Notes under the pieces: generated by a model
The model's database searches: none
What the model was told of the DNA's origin: nothing
What the model saw: only the letters and a program-made list of their open reading frames with translations
Origin: a virus
Length of the DNA: 41,227 nt
IMG/VR virus record: IMGVR_UViG_3300005915_000044
Location: 1 to 41,227 of that record
Reading direction: 5' to 3' (one strand)
Shown: positions 3,661 through 34,151 of the stretch, piece by piece
Layout: every line of letters begins with the position of its first letter
How positions within the stretch are numbered: position 1 is the stretch's first letter
Made by a program: the position numbers and the translations under genes

Positions 3661-5136
3661 CTAAAGTCCCATCCAGGCTTGACCTGAGTCAATCATTCCA
3701 TTACTATAACGACTAAAAAAATCATCATCATCTTCTTCTTTTGTAGCAAAAACTCTTGTAGCTGAATTCGAAAAATACTCCGTAAGACAAAGTGCATCTG
3801 CAATATTTGGGCTTGCAATACCGCGAGCTTTTAAATCCTTCTTAGACTCTACGATATAACCTCCGTGAGCATTGAATTTGTATCTAACACAAGCAAGTTC
3901 ACTTGCAAGTTGCTGCCCAAGAGTTTCAGTTTCTCCATTTACTTTAGTATCAGGAAATGAATACTTTCCAAGTAAGCAATTATCTCTTACCCTTATCCAC
4001 AACTCATCTCGTAAGCGATTATACTTTTCCATATTACTTGAAGAATTTGCCACGTTAACTTGATACAGATTCTTCATATGGTGTTTTTCTAGCCAGTCAG
4101 CAACGCCTGCTCCAACGCCAATTACATCTATAGCACAGCCACTAGCTTCTGTTTCCTGATAAGTCTGATTTATAAACCCACCAAGATCAATCGTATTCAG
4201 CTTTCTAAAAGTTTCCCAGGGTTTAATTATCAACCCTTGTCTTGGAAGAATAATAGAACTATCATCACCATACCGAGCAACATCTACACCAAGATACAAA
4301 GGCTCATCTTCAGCTACTTCAAACTCCTGTCCAATACACTGCTCTGCTGTCCAAAGCGGAATCAATGTATCATCGTCTTGAAGCGGGGGATTTCCCTCTA
4401 CGCGAATTCTAAAGACGTTTGAATCTACCCCATACTTCATTGCAAAATACTTAGGCATTGAAGGATCTACATTTGTAGACTCCCTTGAATCAAAATGAAA
4501 CTTTTTCCATTGCTTGCTGATCTCAGCGTGAAAATGCGTATCGTAAAAGTACCCAGTATTCTTAGTCATATTTCCAATAAGAAGAACTTTATTATCTGGC
4601 TGAGTCATTGCACCTTCAAGTGGCACAAATGTCGGGTCAGGAATTCCTGAAGCTTCATCACAAATAATCAATAGATGATCTGCGTGAAGTCCGGCAAGAG
4701 TCTCTGCTTGTTCCTCTTTCGTAGCTCTAATAGACGGAGAAATTAATCTCAGCCAATATTCTTTTGGTGCTTCTTTATGTTGAATAGAATCTTTTCTAAC
4801 TATAAACTCATCAGCTACAATAGACTGCCTAAGCCACTTAGAAATTTCCGCAAGAAAAATATCTCTTAACTGCCTATTAGTTGGTGCAGTCACTACTACT
4901 TTTGCGTACGGTCTAGTAACTAAAAACCATAATGCTATCCATGAAGCACTTGTATCTTTGCCAACTCCATGACCACTACGAACAGTAACTCGTTTCTCTT
5001 TTCCTATAGCCTGAAGAATCTCAATTTGCTGAGTTGATGGAACTGCTTTAATGCACTCCGAAACAAACTGCAAAGGACTCCGTTTCCACTCAGAAAGTTT
5101 CTTCAGTACTGATTTATTTATATTTGTTTCAACCAT
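3661..5136 (-). CDS. Terminase large subunit
   Basis: 491 aa. It is the packaging motor that translocates and cuts concatemeric DNA. ATPase domain: Walker A GHGVGKDT near residues 55-62 and Walker B LLIICDEAS near 155-163. Nuclease domain: GVDVARYGDDSS near 283-294, a second acidic site in CAIDVIGVG near 334-342, and a C-terminal NIADAL segment, the usual RNase H-like layout. Length is normal for TerL. The ATG has no recognisable Shine-Dalgarno sequence; a copy of the dispersed palindrome ends about 15 bases upstream, which is unusual in this genome. Confidence 0.93.
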   Translation of the reverse strand: MVETNINKSVLKKLSEWKRSPLQFVSECIKAVPSTQQIEILQAIGKEKRVTVRSGHGVGKDTSASWIALWFLVTRPYAKVVVTAPTNRQLRDIFLAEISKWLRQSIVADEFIVRKDSIQHKEAPKEYWLRLISPSIRATKEEQAETLAGLHADHLLIICDEASGIPDPTFVPLEGAMTQPDNKVLLIGNMTKNTGYFYDTHFHAEISKQWKKFHFDSRESTNVDPSMPKYFAMKYGVDSNVFRIRVEGNPPLQDDDTLIPLWTAEQCIGQEFEVAEDEPLYLGVDVARYGDDSSIILPRQGLIIKPWETFRKLNTIDLGGFINQTYQETEASGCAIDVIGVGAGVADWLEKHHMKNLYQVNVANSSSNMEKYNRLRDELWIRVRDNCLLGKYSFPDTKVNGETETLGQQLASELACVRYKFNAHGGYIVESKKDLKARGIASPNIADALCLTEYFSNSATRVFATKEEDDDDFFSRYSNGMIDSGQAWMGL

Positions 5137-9936: not shown

Positions 9937-10422
9937 TTAAAATCCGCTGTCGTCTAACTGGGATAATTGACTTACTAAATCATTTTTTGGTAAAACAGTT
10001 TCTCCTTCTTGTATTTCTATAATATCAGTATCATCTAAAGCAGCATCTTGTTTTTCTAGGTGGATTAAATGAGCTACCAAACCTTTTATCTCAGATGGTT
10101 TTCCTTCTACGACTAATTCCTTATCTTTAAGTATTTTATAAGAGGCAACAAGATCTCTAAGGCTTGCATCTTCAATTTTATCGGGTGTAATAGCCTCGAG
10201 AACTCGGGCTTGTAGTTCAGTAAGTTGAAGGGACTGAATTTCTCTATATTGCAGCAGCAATCCCTGTTTGTTCTTTATGTCTGCTATTCGACTTCGGAGG
10301 GTTGGAGCAGAGATACCGAGCTCAACTGCGACCGCCGGGATCTTTTCCCCGCGCATAAGCAGATCAAGAGCTGCGTCCATATCTACGTCAAGAGGCTGTC
10401 GCCCTGAGTTAGCTCCGCCCAT
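9937..10422 (-). CDS. Probable terminase small subunit (HTH DNA-binding)
   Basis: 161 aa from ATG 10422. The N-terminal helix-turn-helix region (DAALDLLMRGEKIPAVAVEL followed by GISAPTLRSRI, about residues 10-40) is followed by a helical central part and an acidic tail. A small HTH protein heading the late operon that contains TerL fits the small terminase, which recognises the packaging site. Fibre and HNH genes separate it from TerL, so another HTH role remains possible. ATG 10422 is chosen over an upstream TTG because it overlaps the previous stop (TGATG); AGGAG lies about 10 bases upstream. Confidence 0.6.
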   Translation of the reverse strand: MGGANSGRQPLDVDMDAALDLLMRGEKIPAVAVELGISAPTLRSRIADIKNKQGLLLQYREIQSLQLTELQARVLEAITPDKIEDASLRDLVASYKILKDKELVVEGKPSEIKGLVAHLIHLEKQDAALDDTDIIEIQEGETVLPKNDLVSQLSQLDDSGF

Positions 10423-10646
10423 CAGTTCAATACTCCTGTGTAAAGGCAAATGAAACTTCCATCGGCTGCTTGGTTTTGAAGACTGCAGTTACCTGAGGGT
10501 CCTGGGGAATATCTTGTACAACTCGAGTCCCCGCCGGGCTTGGCCAAGCAAGAATATTTTGTAACAAGTTTCCTGAAGTCTGCCTTAGGCTCCGGGATAT
10601 TGCTGCTGTCGCGAAGAAATTCAGTTAATTGTTCTGCTGCTTCCAT
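10422..10646 (-). CDS. Small cysteine-rich protein, first gene of the leftward operon
   Basis: 74 aa beginning MEAAEQLTEFLRDS. Four cysteines in the C-terminal half (YSCLAKPGG, DSSCTRYSPG, GNCSLQ, SFICLYTG) suggest metal binding or a compact fold. I do not recognise the family. The ATG at 10646 has AAGGGCAG upstream; a longer frame to 10733 would run into the -35 box of the promoter and is unlikely. Its stop overlaps the start of the presumed small terminase. Confidence 0.6.
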   Translation of the reverse strand: MEAAEQLTEFLRDSSNIPEPKADFRKLVTKYSCLAKPGGDSSCTRYSPGPSGNCSLQNQAADGSFICLYTGVLN

Positions 10647-11748: not shown

Positions 11749-12225
11749 ATGGCGAAAAGATTGATAGACTGGACAATATCCGACAAAGGCGCATTGAACC
11801 TGAATGAATACAATTCAGATAAAGATGCAAAGATCATTACGCTGGAAACATTTGACCTGACCAAGATCTGGCCTACGTTTAACGACTTCAATGAAGTGCA
11901 AAAACACTTTACGGTCTACGGGACAAAACAGATTCTGGCCGACTCCGGGGCGATGATTAAGGACGCCAAAGGCAAAGCTGAAAAAGCCAAGGCAAAGTTT
12001 CAGTTGGCTTTGGATGGCAAGCTTCACGGACCAAGGGCAAATGGTACAGCAAATGCCGAAAACAAAAAGATTGTTGATACGGTCAAGACTACCAGCAAAA
12101 TAATTTCATTCGAAGGCCTGATGCTGAAAAAGATCACTTTTCCCGATACATTCACGGAAGAAGATCAAAAGAAACTGACCGAATTTATGGCCCTTGAAGT
12201 CAAGGGAACACAGAAGAAAAAGTAG
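11749..12225 (+). CDS. Hypothetical phage protein, 158 aa
   Basis: It starts MAKRLIDWTISDKGALNLNE and ends in a Lys tail (VKGTQKKK). The central part (YGTKQILADSGAMIKDAKGK, then LALDGKLHGPRANG) resembles in layout the protein at 24755-25174 (FGMSHKLGDAAAGKKGQEA, then LMAGNWSVRAPA), so the two may be diverged relatives. Family function unknown. AAGGGGAT lies about 7 bases before the ATG. GC content is higher than in the tiny genes that follow, which may reflect high expression. Confidence 0.7.
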   Translation: MAKRLIDWTISDKGALNLNEYNSDKDAKIITLETFDLTKIWPTFNDFNEVQKHFTVYGTKQILADSGAMIKDAKGKAEKAKAKFQLALDGKLHGPRANGTANAENKKIVDTVKTTSKIISFEGLMLKKITFPDTFTEEDQKKLTEFMALEVKGTQKKK

Positions 12226-12635: not shown

Positions 12636-12703
12636 GGTAATGCTGTCTCTTTTATAGCAAAAATTTTTTAAATCTACTTAAATGAAACAAACTTCCCAGA
12701 AAG

Positions 12704-12718
12704 GTCAAATATCGACCA
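12704..12718. repeat. Dispersed palindrome copy 5
   Basis: GGTCAAATATCGACC with CCAGAAA before and ATATTTACTTAAAA after. It lies about 35 bases left of the large inverted repeat. Confidence 0.8.
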
Positions 12719-12753
12719 TATTTACTTAAAAATTTATAAGATATTTAGTAACA

Positions 12754-13006
12754 TTTGTAACAATGAAACGGTGAAACGATGAAACAGGTGTAGACGTCCC
12801 CAAATATTCTAAATTACTGCTTCGTTTTAAATTACTTCTCAGTGTTTCTGGTGTTGAGTTCTCAGTATATAAATATATATATTATAAAAATAATACCTTA
12901 AAAAGAAAATCTAAAAACAGTAAGCAGTAATTTAAAAATAAATAGTAATTTAAAAAGAGGGGACGCCTATACCTGTTACATGGTTACATTGTTTCATTGG
13001 TACAAA
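12754..13006. repeat. Large iteron-bearing inverted repeat, candidate replication origin or partition site
   Basis: Left arm 12754-12801 and right arm 12959-13006 are inverted copies, identical at 37 of the inner 45 positions. Each arm reads inward as four 8-bp units: left TTTGTAAC, AATGAAAC, GGTGAAAC, GATGAAAC; right TTTGTACC, AATGAAAC, AATGTAAC, CATGTAAC. Both end in AGGTnTAGnCGTCCCC. The 157-bp core is very AT-rich and has a second inverted pair (AAATTACTGCTT at 12811-12822 and its complement near 12922-12933). Iterons plus an AT-rich core are typical of origins; a MITE-like element is possible, but no target duplication is seen. Confidence 0.6.
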
Positions 13007-13044
13007 AGTTATTAATTTAAATTACAATAGGTACATAAATTACC

Positions 13045-13073
13045 TTGACTACTTGGTTAAAATATGGTATAGT
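13045..13073 (+). promoter_or_regulatory. Sigma70-type promoter
   Basis: TTGACT (13045-13050), 17-bp spacer ending ATGG, TATAGT (13068-13073). Extended -10. It drives the gene starting at 13132. Confidence 0.8.
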
Positions 13074-13131: not shown

Positions 13132-13440
13132 ATGGAATCTGAAACAAGAGTAAGAGGTGTAATACAAAATGCTGAGTACGTTGATTTAGCTTTGACTGAA
13201 GGCAGAGAATTTATAGTTCTTTGCGACAACGAGAAAGATGCAGATTCAAAAAGAGTTTCACTGTTTAGTGTGCGAAGAAAACTGAAATCAACCGACCAAA
13301 GAAAGATTAAAATAAGTAAACAACTAATTGGAGAACAGTGGGTTGTAAAGATTAAAAGAGAAGAACAACAAGTACTGGAAGTTGTAGATGGAGCATTTGT
13401 TCCAGTGCAAAGTAAGGAGATACGGAATGAGTCTGATTAA
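13132..13440 (+). CDS. Hypothetical protein, 102 aa
   Basis: It starts MESETRVRGVIQNAEYVDLA. The predicted alternation of strands and charged residues (VSLFSVRRKLKS, WVVKIKREEQQ) suggests a small beta-rich fold. Unrecognised. AAGGAGATAG precedes the ATG, about 60 bases after a strong promoter. It overlaps the following HNH gene by 14 bases. Confidence 0.65.
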   Translation: MESETRVRGVIQNAEYVDLALTEGREFIVLCDNEKDADSKRVSLFSVRRKLKSTDQRKIKISKQLIGEQWVVKIKREEQQVLEVVDGAFVPVQSKEIRNESD

Positions 13441-14014
13441 GTTATGGAATGACAATTTAAGATCATTGTCTGGGCAGGTTGCTGAAGTAGATCCCTGGGA
13501 TAACGAAAGAGTATCAAAGTATAAGTGGAGAGCAAAGCAATCTGGAACACACAGAAAAACTTACTATGCTTATATAGTAGCATACGATAAAAGACTTGAA
13601 TTACAAACATTTATACTTGGTCGTACCAAGAAAGGTAAGCAAATAGATCACCGAGATGGAGATGGTTTAAACTGTAAAAACTATAATCTTAGAGTATTGT
13701 CAGTTAGACAGAACCAACAAAATAGACACTCAGAAACAACCTCAAAATATCCCGGCGTCAAGGCGTCTGGAAAGAAATGGGTAGCTTCAGTAAAATACCG
13801 TGGAAAGTCAGTTCACCTCGGAACTTTTGCTACTGAAAAAGAAGCTTTTGCTCATTATCAACTGTATGTATTAATTACTTTTGGTGAAGAAGTTCTGCAG
13901 CCAGAAGATAATATAATTACTGTTCCAAGTCAAGATGTACAGCGAATGATGTATCTTATGAGAAAAGATGGTTATTCAGACAAAGAAATAGACGAACATA
14001 TTGCTTTGTTATAA
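13427..14014 (+). CDS. HNH endonuclease with AP2-like domain (copy C)
   Basis: 195 aa from ATG 13427 (AAGGAG 7 bases upstream). HNH core KQIDHRDGDGLNCKNYNLR (about residues 67-85), then SKYPGVKASGKKWVASVKYRGKSVHLGTFATEKEAFAHY, the AP2-type strands. The C-terminal extension VQRMMYLMRKDGYSDKEIDEHI resembles the short helical repeats (xxMxxDGYSDxEIxxxI) added to some homing nucleases. It differs from copies A and B in having Gln where they have the His of MHR/MHK. Probably mobile. Confidence 0.85.
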   Translation: MSLIKLWNDNLRSLSGQVAEVDPWDNERVSKYKWRAKQSGTHRKTYYAYIVAYDKRLELQTFILGRTKKGKQIDHRDGDGLNCKNYNLRVLSVRQNQQNRHSETTSKYPGVKASGKKWVASVKYRGKSVHLGTFATEKEAFAHYQLYVLITFGEEVLQPEDNIITVPSQDVQRMMYLMRKDGYSDKEIDEHIALL

Positions 14015-23404: not shown

Positions 23405-23569
23405 ATGGAACCAAGAAAGCACATTCATAGTACACTAAACGCAGAGCAATTTAAAACAACTAAAAAGGTAATTGCTGAATTGGCAATGGAAATGCAAAAA
23501 TTTATTAGACTTGCAGTTATCGAAAAATGTGAGAGGGAAAATGAAAGAGATACCATTAACTCAGAATAA
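23405..23569 (+). CDS. Ribbon-helix-helix-like protein, 54 aa
   Basis: RKHIHSTLNAEQFKTTKKVI has an N-terminal strand then helix, followed by AELAMEMQKFIRLAVIEKCE, the layout of Arc/MetJ repressors. A small DNA-binding regulator is plausible. AAAGGAATAAA precedes the ATG. Its 3' end overlaps the HNH gene by 29 bases in another frame. Confidence 0.6.
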   Translation: MEPRKHIHSTLNAEQFKTTKKVIAELAMEMQKFIRLAVIEKCERENERDTINSE

Positions 23570-24056
23570 GTTTGCGTTAGTAGATGATGAAGATTTTGAG
23601 CGATTGAGTCAGCATAAGTGGTGTGTTCTGCAGCATGGATTAACGTATTATGCTATGAGAAATCAAGGTGCATCTATTTATATGCACAAAGAAATTTACG
23701 GTCAAAAACATTTTTCTGAGTTGCAAATAGATCATATAGATAATAATGGACTTAATAATCAAAAAAGTAATTTAAGATATTGTACACAGCAACAAAATAC
23801 TTGGAATAGACAAAAAACTAAAGGTAGCTGTGCTTCTAGATATAAGGGTGTATACTATAGAAAAGACAGGGGTAATTGGATAGCTGGAATAACAGTAAAT
23901 GGATTGTATATTCATTTAGGCTCAGTAACTGTAGAAGAAGTAGCTGCAATATTGTATAATTACGCGGCAGTAAAGTACTTTGGTGTATTTGCTTACATTA
24001 ATAAATTACCAGATAAATATGAGCAATTATTTAAAGAAGCAAAACAATTATTATAG
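23541..24056 (+). CDS. HNH homing endonuclease with AP2 domain (copy B)
   Basis: 171 aa. It starts MKEIPLTQNKFALVDDEDFE, close to copy A (MKEIQLTQ...VDDEDY). MHKEIY and HNH core QIDHIDNNGLNNQKSNLR (about residues 63-80); AP2 part SRYKGVYYRKDRGNWIAGIT and IHLGSVTVEEVAAILYNYAA. ATG 23541 matches copy A's start and follows GAGAGGG; the longer frame to 23472 is inside the RHH gene. Likely a free-standing mobile nuclease. Confidence 0.9.
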   Translation: MKEIPLTQNKFALVDDEDFERLSQHKWCVLQHGLTYYAMRNQGASIYMHKEIYGQKHFSELQIDHIDNNGLNNQKSNLRYCTQQQNTWNRQKTKGSCASRYKGVYYRKDRGNWIAGITVNGLYIHLGSVTVEEVAAILYNYAAVKYFGVFAYINKLPDKYEQLFKEAKQLL

Positions 24057-26631: not shown

Positions 26632-27026
26632 TGATTACAAGAAGAGGATTTATGAAATCTGCGTTAGCCTCTATTGGACTTTTAACTGTAAGTCCTATGG
26701 TTGCTAATAGAATATTCTTTCAGTCGGAAAGTAATATACTTCTTCCAGTTGATAATATTTCCTGGTTTTATGTTACAGCAATTAAAGATGAAAGATCTAT
26801 CGAGCCAATGCTGTATGCTTTACAAAGTAGATTGAAGTTTGAATATAAATCTGGGGCAATATTTAGACCGTTTACAAAGAAAGAACTTCCTGTTCCAGGA
26901 GCCGTATATGGCGCTAAAGTATTACCATCTGGTTTACGGTATACAGAAGGCTATGATATTAACGAAGATAGGGTTTTAATTAGACTAGATGCCGCAGTAA
27001 TACGGGGATTAGCTCAGTCTGGTTAG
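26631..27026 (+). CDS. Protein with Tat-type signal peptide
   Basis: 131 aa. The N-terminus MITRRGFMKSALASIGLLTV has RRGFMK followed by a hydrophobic stretch and SPMVA, a twin-arginine signal with possible cleavage near A25. The mature part is short, beta-rich (WFYVTAIKDERSIEPMLYAL, VPGAVYGAKVLPSGLRYTEG). ATG overlaps the nuclease stop (TGATG). The last eight codons (from RGLAQSG back) lie in the tRNA-Pro gene, so the reading frame ends on tRNA sequence. Function unknown. Confidence 0.65.
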   Translation: MITRRGFMKSALASIGLLTVSPMVANRIFFQSESNILLPVDNISWFYVTAIKDERSIEPMLYALQSRLKFEYKSGAIFRPFTKKELPVPGAVYGAKVLPSGLRYTEGYDINEDRVLIRLDAAVIRGLAQSG

Positions 27027-27080
27027 AGTACGTGGTTTGGGACCACGGAGTCACTGGTTCAAATCCAGTATCCCCGACCA
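27003..27080 (+). tRNA. tRNA-Pro (anticodon TGG), CCA encoded
   Basis: Acceptor CGGGGAT/ATCCCCG, D stem GCTC/GAGT, anticodon stem CGTGG/CCACG with loop TTTGGGA, T stem ACTGG/CCAGT with loop TTCAAAT, discriminator A, encoded CCA. A complete, canonical cloverleaf. It probably compensates for host codon supply. Its 5' third overlaps the end of the Tat-signal gene, and palindrome copy 9 starts five bases after the CCA. Confidence 0.95.
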
Positions 27081-28454: not shown

Positions 28455-28462
28455 AGAGTATG

Positions 28463-28556
28463 TCAGCGGTGGTGGAATTGGTAGACACAGGGACTACAGG
28501 AGAATATTTCCCGGAGACTGCTTCACTCCGTGCAGGTTCGAATCCTGCCCGCTGAT
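28463..28556 (+). tRNA. tRNA-Leu-like class II tRNA with abnormal anticodon arm
   Basis: Acceptor TCAGCGG/CCGCTGA is perfect; the D arm TGGTGGAATTGGTAGACAC is typical of tRNA-Leu; variable arm CGGAG/CTCCG; T arm GCAGG-TTCGAAT-CCTGC. The anticodon region can only form GGGA/TCCC around a 15-base loop (CTACAGGAGAATATT), about 8 bases too long, and the discriminator is T with no CCA encoded. The anticodon therefore cannot be assigned. It is either degenerate or deliberately unusual. Confidence 0.7.
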
Positions 28557-28573
28557 ACATTGTTCCGAACTTC

Positions 28574-28923: not shown

Positions 28924-30234
28924 ATGCTTGACGCTAAGATTCACACAGTAGACCCATCCACAGTAATTCTAAGTGGAGACAGGCCCAGGCAAAGGAAAGA
29001 CGTCGGGGAGATAAAGAAGCTTGTAGAATCTATTAAAACTTATGGACAAATTCAGCCCATTGTAGTTACCAGAAAGATGGAGCTTATTGCGGGAGGACGA
29101 AGACTTGCCGCCTGTATCCTTGGGCAGTTCCAAGCACAGATTTGTTTCTCTGACGAAATGGACCAATTAGTTTTACGGGAGATGGAGCTGGAAGAAAACG
29201 TGCAAAGGAAGAATTTAACTCCGGCTGAAGAGTCTATTGCAATAGCTAGTCTGGTAGAATTTAGACAAGCTCGTCTTGGCAAACCTACCCAAGGAAAGCA
29301 GGGTGGATACACTCTTGAAAAGGCTGCTGAGGACATCGGCAAGACAAAGGGAACTGTTATCGAAGCTATGAACATAGCGGAGATGCTTAAGAGTTTCCCC
29401 AACCTTAGTGAAGCAAAGACTAAGAGTGAAATTAAATCCTCCTACAAAGGTCTGCAAAGAATAGCAAATAACATCGAAGCCTTAAGTACGTTTGAGGAAT
29501 TAATTAAAGTTAACAGTCACTTCGATCTTGTTAATGCGGACGCGATTAAGCACATGCCCACAATAGAAGACAAGTCTATTGATTTACTGTTTACTGATCC
29601 AATTTATGGAATTGATATAGATAAAAATGCTATGTCAGTTGGTGGGCATACCGGAGGAGATTTAACAACTACAGGTATAAAATATGACGACGATCTTGAA
29701 ACTGCTATTTCTTTGTGTAGACTTCTTGCTGTGGAGTCCTTCCGTTTTTGTAAGGATAATGCTCATGCTTATGTATTTTGCGGCAGGGATAGGTTTATAT
29801 TTCAGTTGGTGTACGACATAATGCTAGACGCTGGGTGGGATGTATTAAAGTGGCCTATGGTTTGGGTTAAGGGAAAGTCTGGGCAAAACAATCAGCCAGA
29901 AAGATGGCCTAGTTCTACTTATGAGGCTATTTTATTTGCAAGAAAACCTGAGTCAAAAATTGTACTACAGGGTAAACCTGACTGGATTCAATGCGATAAA
30001 GTACTTAACTCAGAACGAATTCACCAAGCTGAAAAACCTGTAGCTCTATGTAAAGAATTAATTTCCAGAGTAACTGTACCTGGGCAGAAGATGTATGATC
30101 CATTTATGGGCAGTGGTGCATTGATTGAAGCTGCTTGCGAAATGAAGTTGCTTGTAACTGGCTGTGAATTAGCCGTGGAATCTTACGCTGCGGCCGTAAC
30201 CAGAATGTCTCAGTGGCAGGAGAGGAATAAGTAA
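28924..30234 (+). CDS. ParB-domain / DNA methyltransferase fusion
   Basis: 436 aa. ParB-like N-terminal domain: KTYGQIQPIVVTRKMELIAG then GGRRLAACI (about residues 38-66), followed by an HTH-like region (TLEKAAEDIGKTKGTVIEAM, about 130-150). Methyltransferase from about 200: motif IV TDPIYG (224-229) and later motif I YDPFMGSGALIEAA (about 392-405), the IV-before-I order of beta-class N6-adenine/N4-cytosine enzymes. DPIY replaces the usual DPPY. Likely methylates phage DNA against restriction, targeted by the ParB/HTH part. GGGGAGG precedes the ATG. Confidence 0.85.
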   Translation: MLDAKIHTVDPSTVILSGDRPRQRKDVGEIKKLVESIKTYGQIQPIVVTRKMELIAGGRRLAACILGQFQAQICFSDEMDQLVLREMELEENVQRKNLTPAEESIAIASLVEFRQARLGKPTQGKQGGYTLEKAAEDIGKTKGTVIEAMNIAEMLKSFPNLSEAKTKSEIKSSYKGLQRIANNIEALSTFEELIKVNSHFDLVNADAIKHMPTIEDKSIDLLFTDPIYGIDIDKNAMSVGGHTGGDLTTTGIKYDDDLETAISLCRLLAVESFRFCKDNAHAYVFCGRDRFIFQLVYDIMLDAGWDVLKWPMVWVKGKSGQNNQPERWPSSTYEAILFARKPESKIVLQGKPDWIQCDKVLNSERIHQAEKPVALCKELISRVTVPGQKMYDPFMGSGALIEAACEMKLLVTGCELAVESYAAAVTRMSQWQERNK

Positions 30235-31444: not shown

Positions 31445-31786
31445 ATGAAACGAATACTTATAATTTCTCCGTACTCAGGAGATATAACTCTCCACGAAGC
31501 TTACCTACGGCTTTGCATAGCTCATGTAATAAGCAGAGGCCATGCTCCGTTTGCAACTCATTATATTTACCCAAACTTTCTTAATGACAGTAATCCAGAA
31601 CAACGAAAGCTTGGTATGGAAATGGGACAGGCTTGGGGATCAATGGCTGATGAGTATTGGGTATTTAGAGATCATGGCATAAGCTCTGGTATGACAGATG
31701 ATATGATTTATTTTAAATCAGCTTTTCCAGAGACTACTATGAAAAGTGTTTATTTAGATAAGGGAGGAGTAAATAATGAGAGTTGA
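31445..31786 (+). CDS. DUF7768 / nucleoside-deoxyribosyltransferase-like protein
   Basis: 113 aa. RILIISPYSGDITLHEAYLR, GHAPFATHYIYPNFLNDSNP, and a C-terminal WVFRDHGISSGMTDDMIY block: a Rossmann-like fold of phage proteins related to YspA/DUF4406-type nucleotide-binding enzymes. Probably nucleotide metabolism, next to the polymerase. GGAGGAACAAAA precedes the ATG; overlaps the polymerase start by 11 bases. Confidence 0.7.
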   Translation: MKRILIISPYSGDITLHEAYLRLCIAHVISRGHAPFATHYIYPNFLNDSNPEQRKLGMEMGQAWGSMADEYWVFRDHGISSGMTDDMIYFKSAFPETTMKSVYLDKGGVNNES

Positions 31787-34151
31787 AATTGCTGGACCCA
31801 CTGATGCTGCTATTATGTTTTGTGGAGAAGCCCCCGGTGCTGAGGAGGATAAAGTTGGTAAACCTTTTGTTGGCTATGCGGGAACTACTTTTAACAATTT
31901 ACTTAGCCAAGCTGGGATTGCTCGATATCAATGCCTTGTTACTAATGTAGCGAAAGAGCGACCACCAGCAAACAAGATTTCTTATTTCTTCGAAGACAAG
32001 AGGTGTACAATTCCCAAGCCTAAAATGGCAGAATGGGTAGATGAACTCAAAAGAGATATTGAGCTTTATAGGCCAAACTTAGTTGTGGCACTAGGATCTA
32101 CTGCATTGTGGGCGTTGACTGGAGAAAAGAAGATCTCAGATTTTCGTGGCTATATAATTGAATCTACACTTGTTCCAGGTGTGAAAGTACTACCAACCTA
32201 TCACCCACAAGCAATTAACTGGGATTGGAAGTTGTACTTTCAAACTGTACTGGATTTGCGTAAGGCTCTTAGGAATAGTGAAACTCCCGGGATGCCTGAG
32301 TTCAAGCAAGTATTTCAGCCCGGTGTTGACGTAAGAACTTTTATCAATTACATGGAGGAGATGATAGCGAGTCCTGAGTTTACCAAACTTGCTATAGATG
32401 TTGAAACAGTGCAACCCGGTAGTCACATTGAAGAACTTGGTCTTAGCCATGATCCTAACTTTGGTATATCAATCTTCCTTATTAAAGGCCGAGCCCCGGC
32501 GCTACCAGAGAAGGATGAGTTGCTCTTATGGCAGACATTTGTTAGACTTGTAGAGTGTAAGAAATGTGTTATGCAGAATGGAGCTTATGATATTGGCGTC
32601 CTTTGGTATAATCAGCATATCTTAGTAGAGAATCTGTGGATGGATACGCTGATTGCTGCACATGTGTGCTGGCCAGAGTTGCCAAGAGATCTTGGATTTC
32701 TTGGTTCTATTTGTCTGGACGTTATTCCGTGGAAGAATGGCTCTGCAAAGACTAAAGATTACAACCCTGCTGATGCAGCTAATACTCTTGGTATTGCTGA
32801 GGTGCTTGATAAAGAGCTTGATGCGCAGGAAGTCAGGCATACGTTTGACTTTGAGATGAACTTAATTCCTGTGGCACTTATGATGCAGCTGCAGGGAATT
32901 GAAGTCAACGTTGAGAAGCAGCAAGAGCTTATTGAAAGTTGGACCATAAAGAGAAACAGATTAAAGGCTGATCTCTCTGCACTTATCGGTAAGGATATAA
33001 ACTTTAATTCCCCGAAGCAGATGTCACAGCTTCTGTACTTTGATCTTGGACTTCCTGTTCAGTACAAGAGAAGAAAGTCCGTTAAAGATACTCGCACCAT
33101 GACTTGTGATGCCGCAGCTCTTAGAACTCTTGCTCGACTTGTTCCAGACAATCCTGTCTTCAATCTTATTTTGGACTACAAAAAAGCTGGTACATTGTTA
33201 CGTTTTCTTGATGTTAAACTTTCTCCGGAGAATAGGGTTCATACGAGTTATAATATCACCGGAGCTGCTTCCGACGATGAAGAAGATACAAAGAAAACTA
33301 AACGAAGCTTTGGTAGATGGAGTTCTTCAAAGTCAATTATTCTTCCTTTCGGTAGCGGCAATTTACAGAACATACCCCCGGAAGCAAGAAAGATGTATAC
33401 GGCTAGACCTGGTTGGAAAATCATTGAGGCTGACTATGCACAAGCTGAGGCAGTTGTTGTGGCATACCTTGTTGGTGATCAGAAGCTGAAACAAATGTTC
33501 AAAGATGCTTTTGGATTGTCTCATACTGAGAAAGCTAAATACGATATTCATAAGCTTACGTTTGCTCAGATGATTGGTATAGATATTGATCAGGTTACTC
33601 CAGAGCAGAGAACTGCTGGAAAGACTGTCAGACACGCAACTTCGTATTCTGCTGGTCCACAGGTACTTGCTAATAGACTTGGGTTGAAGCTTGCTGAAGC
33701 AAAGAAACTTATGGACCTTTATCATAAAGCTAATCCAGCGCTTAGAATGTGGTACAGCTCTATTCAGGAAGAGATTAAAAGAAGTAGAACATTAACTAAT
33801 CTACTTGGCAGGAAGCATAAGTTCTTAGACCGCTGGGGTGATCCTCTGTTTAGAAGTTCTTACTCCTTTAAACCTCAGTCTACTGTTGGTGATCTATTAA
33901 ATGAGTCTTTGTTAAAAGTCTACGATAGTTTGCTTGATGTTCCTTACGAGATAATGATTCTTCTACAGCTTCATGATGCTATCTATGTTATGGTAGAAGA
34001 TGAAAATGTAGATACAACTATAAAACTTATGAGAAAACATATGATACGGGAGTTGACTTATGGTAATGAAAGTTTTATTATTGACTGCGACTTTAAATTG
34101 AAAACATCTTGGGCTGAAGGTGAAGAGCTTGAGATTAATTGGAGGGAGTAA
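31776..34151 (+). CDS. Uracil-DNA glycosylase / family A DNA polymerase fusion
   Basis: 791 aa. Residues 1-165: family-4-type UDG (GEAPGAEEDKVGKPFVGYAG 17-36, TYHPQA 141-146) without the N-terminal CxxC of Fe-S UDGs. About 200-350: 3'-5' exonuclease (LAIDVET 205-211, QNGAYDIGVL 267-276). About 400-791: polymerase, motif A EADYAQAEA (Asp553), motif B RTAGKTVRHATSYSAG with His620 at the position of E. coli Phe762, motif C QLHDA (His733, Asp734) with Ala where HDE has Glu. GGGAGGAG precedes the ATG. Main replicative polymerase. Confidence 0.92.
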   Translation: MRVEIAGPTDAAIMFCGEAPGAEEDKVGKPFVGYAGTTFNNLLSQAGIARYQCLVTNVAKERPPANKISYFFEDKRCTIPKPKMAEWVDELKRDIELYRPNLVVALGSTALWALTGEKKISDFRGYIIESTLVPGVKVLPTYHPQAINWDWKLYFQTVLDLRKALRNSETPGMPEFKQVFQPGVDVRTFINYMEEMIASPEFTKLAIDVETVQPGSHIEELGLSHDPNFGISIFLIKGRAPALPEKDELLLWQTFVRLVECKKCVMQNGAYDIGVLWYNQHILVENLWMDTLIAAHVCWPELPRDLGFLGSICLDVIPWKNGSAKTKDYNPADAANTLGIAEVLDKELDAQEVRHTFDFEMNLIPVALMMQLQGIEVNVEKQQELIESWTIKRNRLKADLSALIGKDINFNSPKQMSQLLYFDLGLPVQYKRRKSVKDTRTMTCDAAALRTLARLVPDNPVFNLILDYKKAGTLLRFLDVKLSPENRVHTSYNITGAASDDEEDTKKTKRSFGRWSSSKSIILPFGSGNLQNIPPEARKMYTARPGWKIIEADYAQAEAVVVAYLVGDQKLKQMFKDAFGLSHTEKAKYDIHKLTFAQMIGIDIDQVTPEQRTAGKTVRHATSYSAGPQVLANRLGLKLAEAKKLMDLYHKANPALRMWYSSIQEEIKRSRTLTNLLGRKHKFLDRWGDPLFRSSYSFKPQSTVGDLLNESLLKVYDSLLDVPYEIMILLQLHDAIYVMVEDENVDTTIKLMRKHMIRELTYGNESFIIDCDFKLKTSWAEGEELEINWRE

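Follow-up and report, generated by a model that had tools for sequence, protein, structure and literature searches.

A mirrored iteron array around an AT-rich core is a probable replication origin in tailed phages that carry DUF3987 and UDG-PolA genes

The window, meaning the whole stretch of DNA analysed here, is a complete IMG/VR record of 41,227 bases. Its gene content includes podovirus-like genes for portal, scaffold and terminase, together with a ligase, an exonuclease, a Sak4-like protein and the replication genes listed in Table 1; a gene at 28924-30234 encodes a fusion of ParB_N with an N6/N4 DNA methylase. tRNA-Pro is predicted twice in the replication-gene region, with different anticodons (27003-27080 and 28462-28558), and two HNH endonuclease genes of one shared PHROG lie among the early genes (13388-14014 and 23472-24056). 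The element under study occupies a gap free of ORFs of at least 60 codons, which is followed by a sigma-70-like promoter and the early genes; a similar promoter lies to the right of the element in the relatives L067, L094, L170 and L180.

Table 1. Coordinates of the element (12703-13073) and of the genes discussed with it
Feature	Position	Strand	Remarks
Left-neighbour gene, 158 aa, no family	11749..12225	+	41-53% in closest element-bearing relatives
Dyad GGTCAAATATCGACC, immediately outside left arm	12703..12717	no strand	1 of 12 dispersed GGTCAANNNTTGACC copies
Left arm, 57 nt	12745..12801	+	Ungapped extension
Left iterons TTTGTAAC AATGAAAC GGTGAAAC GATGAAAC, four 8-bp units	12754..12785	+	
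GACGTCCCC block, closes left arm	12793..12801	+	GTCCC-type block also in L066, L067, L180, G034
Left inner inverted-repeat arm, within the core's pyrimidine-rich flank	12807..12847	+	
AT-rich core	12864..12923	no strand	Rank 2 in the record by 60-mer instability
Right inner inverted-repeat arm	12915..12955	-	
Right arm, 57 nt, starts GGGGACGCC	12959..13015	-	Ungapped extension
Right iterons, inverted, four 8-bp units; minus strand TTTGTACC AATGAAAC AATGTAAC CATGTAAC	12975..13006	-	
Sigma-70-like promoter TTGACT-N17-TATAGT, extended -10	13045..13073	+	Reads into early genes
UDG + family A DNA polymerase fusion (UDG-PolA)	31776..34151	+	In the replication module accompanying the element
DUF3987 helicase-like protein, predicted C-terminal winged helix	34744..35952	+	Candidate initiator

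An earlier note, made from the letters of this DNA, had described two arms (12754-12801 and 12959-13006) as inverted copies lying 157 nt apart, and this is exactly what is found: 40 of 48 positions are identical, as are 37 of the 45 inner ones. Ungapped extension lengthens the arms to 57 nt (12745-12801 and 12959-13015), which are 82% complementary. The remaining anatomy of that description was likewise seen, namely four 8-bp units per arm (12754-12785 on the plus strand, 12975-13006 on the minus strand), a GTCCCC block ending each arm and facing the AT-rich core, and an inverted pair belonging to the core itself (12807-12847 and 12915-12955, 80% match with the register shifted 2 nt). The runner-up among 48-nt inverted arms across the whole window matches at just 30 of 48 positions, and the alignment score of the arms is 59, compared with a mean of 13 and a maximum of 27 for shuffles.

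The 8-bp units of both arms share the consensus NNTGWAAC. Tandem TGWAAC pairs (at most one mismatch) occur six times in the element and once elsewhere in the window, with 1.1 expected. GTCCCC by itself is common (6 copies in the window versus 6.0 expected); GTCCC-type blocks stand at the matching place in several relatives. By eye, several relatives have an inner CAGTGTTT box; with the pattern tried it was not enriched in the window. The core ranks second among the 60-mers of the record, 0.4 kcal behind the least stable one (-58.1 versus -57.7 kcal/mol). In some records the core has a strong local purine switch; that of the window is weak, ranking 195 of 8202. A scan of the window placed DnaA-box-like sites only at 3993, 5952 and 36632, none of them within the element or close to it. 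The GC-skew minimum falls at 10.96 kb, ~1.9 kb from the element, where gene direction switches, and because the skew follows gene orientation it does not discriminate between readings of the element.

The palindrome GGTCAANNNTTGACC, one copy of which adjoins the element, is present 12 times in the window when up to two mismatches are allowed (positions 1331, 5151, 9338, 10776, 12703, 14395, 17181, 17474, 21600, 27086, 30803 and 38863), mainly between genes; 1.4 copies are expected and none of 100 shuffles reached 12. The dyad also adjoins the element in L121, L169 and L180, and is beside or inside it in several relatives. These palindromes might be a dispersed operator or a small RNA hairpin.

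Relatives were collected through ligase, portal and neighbour-gene searches. Six of them (L066, L067, L094, L169/L168, L170 and L180) have the full layout at the same gene position, and L121 has a half-copy, its contig stopping inside the core. The order is constant: tandem units of 7-9 bp, a GTCCCC-type block, a pyrimidine-rich flank, the AT-rich core, and then the mirror image. In seven of the eight element-bearing records compared, no 60-mer is less stable than the core; the window is the exception, at rank 2. The units themselves differ, with TGWAAC in the window and GTAATCG or GTAACGCA forms in relatives. The earlier note had proposed looking for covarying arms in related phages, and they are there: the letters vary between phages and agree within a phage. 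Within-phage arm scores are 59, 58, 36, 37, 35, 55 and 25, where shuffles average 12-14. Each of the seven lies above the highest value among 1000 shuffles (maxima 21-27); the lowest score, that of G030/L180, is 25 against 21. For six of seven left arms the best partner is the right arm of the same phage. Such agreement would be expected of paired sites bound by one sequence-specific protein. Since the element is single-copy in the genome and keeps a constant position in relatives, a MITE or other mobile element, one of the findings that the earlier note had named as fatal to its own reading, was rejected. An ECF-sigma promoter (TGAAAC/TGTAAC-N17-CGTC, noticed by eye in both arms) was dropped as well, because its letters are not conserved in relatives.

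The comparison was widened beyond close relatives. Searching named phages at the DNA level with the element region gave no match, and a search of viral contigs with the arm-letter pattern gave 63 chance-like matches, none with paired TGWAAC arrays; these 63 contigs later served as unrelated controls. A scan with the DUF3987 protein of the window found >500 relatives, and the polymerase was also present in all 39 of the long DUF3987-relative records checked. The survey set comprised 33 of these long records, all with UDG-PolA and DUF3987, read fully or nearly so. Inverted arms scoring at least 20 surround the least stable 60-mer in 16 of the 33, and an element is called in 20 of 33 when lower-ranked positions are included at a threshold of 23, both thresholds having been set after the first scores were known. 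No element was called in 13 of 33 records, which may still carry one, as the detector is blind to gapped or diverged arrays. A score of 20 was reached at 9 of 231 other low-stability positions, and several of the nine are the element itself at a lower rank. Portal relatives lacking the PolA/DUF3987 module had no arms (0 of 9, and 0 of 63 at other ranks), and a single unrelated contig of 63 had arms at its least stable 60-mer. In that contig (L006:1241), a poly-A least stable 60-mer lies between inverted arms of repeated GTCTCC/ATGTGTCCACGG.

Position and flanks were also consistent across the survey. Every called element (20 of 20) lies 10.8-21.4 kb upstream of PolA and on the PolA strand, the distance in the window being 18.9 kb; 30% of other low-stability loci fall in that band, giving p ~4e-11, a somewhat generous value because the band was defined from the elements themselves. 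Read towards the core, 22 of 31 elements have two pyrimidine-rich inner flanks and none has two purine-rich ones, compared with 20% and 13% of control loci. Of the named phages with both genes, MW202489, MW202554 and Desulfofustis phage show clear arms where their DNA is least stable, Microcystis phage Mel-JY34 has weaker arms, Kuura presents only a weak case, and TGCAT arrays occur close by in vir526; this detector called no element in PaP2, EBPR podovirus 3, Vibrio ABTNL-3 or Aeromonas P5. The ParB_N-methylase, found in nearly all survey records, accompanies the element nearly as well as the replication genes do, and methylation of the origin by this protein is possible.

The reading of the locus as a candidate origin, which the earlier note had put forward, passed all of the available comparative tests (architecture, unstable core and association with replication genes), and on these sequence comparisons the element is very probably the replication origin of the phage. 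The best reading is a bidirectional origin in which mirrored initiator sites surround a melting core. Several copies of the initiator would occupy the tandem iteron array in each arm, placing two complexes head to head around the core; once the arrays on both sides were filled the AT-rich core would melt, one helicase would be loaded per direction, and the two helicases would depart oppositely. The phage's own PolA would then replicate the DNA in both directions.

The most likely initiator appears to be the DUF3987 helicase, and we put the chance that it binds the iterons at about even. It would read them through its C-terminal winged helix, in the way that SaPI Rep and Cch2 bind iterons through their C-terminal domains (PMC7581432). 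Elsewhere, DUF3987 was predicted to act as a replication helicase in mobile elements (PMC5862659). The only Pfam match of the protein is DUF3987, its P-loop-like motif is atypical, and a search by sequence found no solved relative. A model of the C-terminal 80 aa gives a winged helix with a MarR-like fold (pLDDT 84); the full-length model (mean pLDDT 40.8) is too poor to use. The gene (34.7-35.9 kb) lies 22 kb from the element (12.75-13.0 kb). Between phages, arm similarity tracks the helicase C-terminus (rho 0.12) no better than the N-terminus (0.14), and the binder is therefore not pinned down by this comparison.

Other functions were weighed against that of an origin. The arms could be operator or enhancer arrays through which a phage regulator controls the 13045-13073 promoter, with the core acting as a promoter or bend. 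In the window, as in several relatives, a good sigma-70-like promoter does follow the right arm, and the GGTCAANNNTTGACC dyad adjoins the element. However, a promoter has no need of mirrored arrays ~160 nt from each other on either side of the genome's least stable DNA, and the element tracks replication genes across phages that otherwise share little, so we consider transcription control unlikely. An origin and a promoter may overlap, as they do in lambda. It is less probable still that the element works as a long hairpin transcript or as a DNA cruciform, serving as a structured RNA or as a recombination or processing signal. The region forms a strong hairpin in each of the seven phages tested (RNA z -5.2 to -11.8), but any inverted pair of arrays would fold likewise, no Rfam family matches at threshold, and weak matches to miRNA precursors merely mirror the long hairpin; moreover, in G027 and G030 the arms align only with gaps and their repeat numbers are unequal. 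From sequence alone a hairpin and mirrored protein sites cannot be separated.

Two further alternatives seem very remote. A pac site for packaging, in which a cut lies between small-terminase sites in the style of SPP1 pacL-pacR, would fit the gene at 9937-10449, ~2.3 kb away, whose weak HTH match makes it a possible small terminase, and it would fit the L121 contig, which terminates within the core. Several contigs nevertheless continue through the core. In addition, 13 element-bearing records have PolA and DUF3987 and no detectable relative of the window's portal, TerL or TerS candidate, while PolA, DUF3987 and the element are all missing from nine records whose portal is related. The element thus belongs to replication and not to packaging, being present without packaging relatives and absent from portal relatives that lack PolA and DUF3987. 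We give equally little credence to a parS-like partition site, which the earlier note had offered as its alternative on the grounds that TGAAAC resembles half of parS and that the phage encodes a ParB_N protein. The 16-bp palindrome TGTTTCACGTGAAACA has no match here even at three mismatches, and the protein is the ParB_N-methylase fusion, in which no HTH domain was matched.

In a search of open-licence papers, none was found that describes origins of this kind in tailed phages. Such origins may constitute a widespread and undescribed class, defined by mirrored phage-specific iterons at the melting minimum of the genome together with a DUF3987 winged-helix helicase and UDG-PolA, although we regard this generalization as evenly balanced. 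Most lytic phages seen only in metagenomes have no known origin; in this lineage of hundreds the origin would be locatable from its letters, as the least stable 60-mer between inverted arms upstream of PolA. DUF3987, a domain still labelled as of 'unknown function', would gain a testable role as an initiator, and arm pairs with different letters, such as those of G056 (CATGTAC) and G063 (TTGTAGG), provide material for tests of specificity.

Among known systems, origins of lambda-type phages and iteron plasmids also have tandem iterons adjoining an AT-rich unwinding element. Their iterons lie on one side of the AT-rich region, whereas the arrays here are mirrored on both sides and have no DnaA box in or near them. 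Herpes simplex oriS has inverted initiator boxes on either side of an AT-rich spacer (PMC12543377), but these are single boxes and the initiator is the SF2 helicase UL9, so the likeness is one of layout only and no kinship is claimed. The closest parallel in arrangement is with PICI/SaPI origins, where two sets of short iterons surround an AT-rich melting region and the letters differ between elements (PMC6092414); the window element has the same layout of iteron sets flanking an AT-rich region, and an initiator-helicase that binds iterons by its C-terminal domain (PMC7581432) would match the candidate as modelled here. The differences are that those are satellites, whereas these are tailed phages encoding their own DNA polymerase; that the helicase there is of the DUF927 or D5/Primase_C type and the candidate here is DUF3987; that the origin there is immediately 3′ of the initiator gene and here would be 22 kb away, if DUF3987 is the initiator; and that the window element adds a GTCCCC block and pyrimidine-rich flanks. 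Because it neither lies behind its candidate initiator gene nor goes with a DUF927/D5 helicase, we do not file it as a PICI origin, yet by analogy it would work like one. A PICI-type layout in full-size phages bears on the source of the replicons of these satellites.
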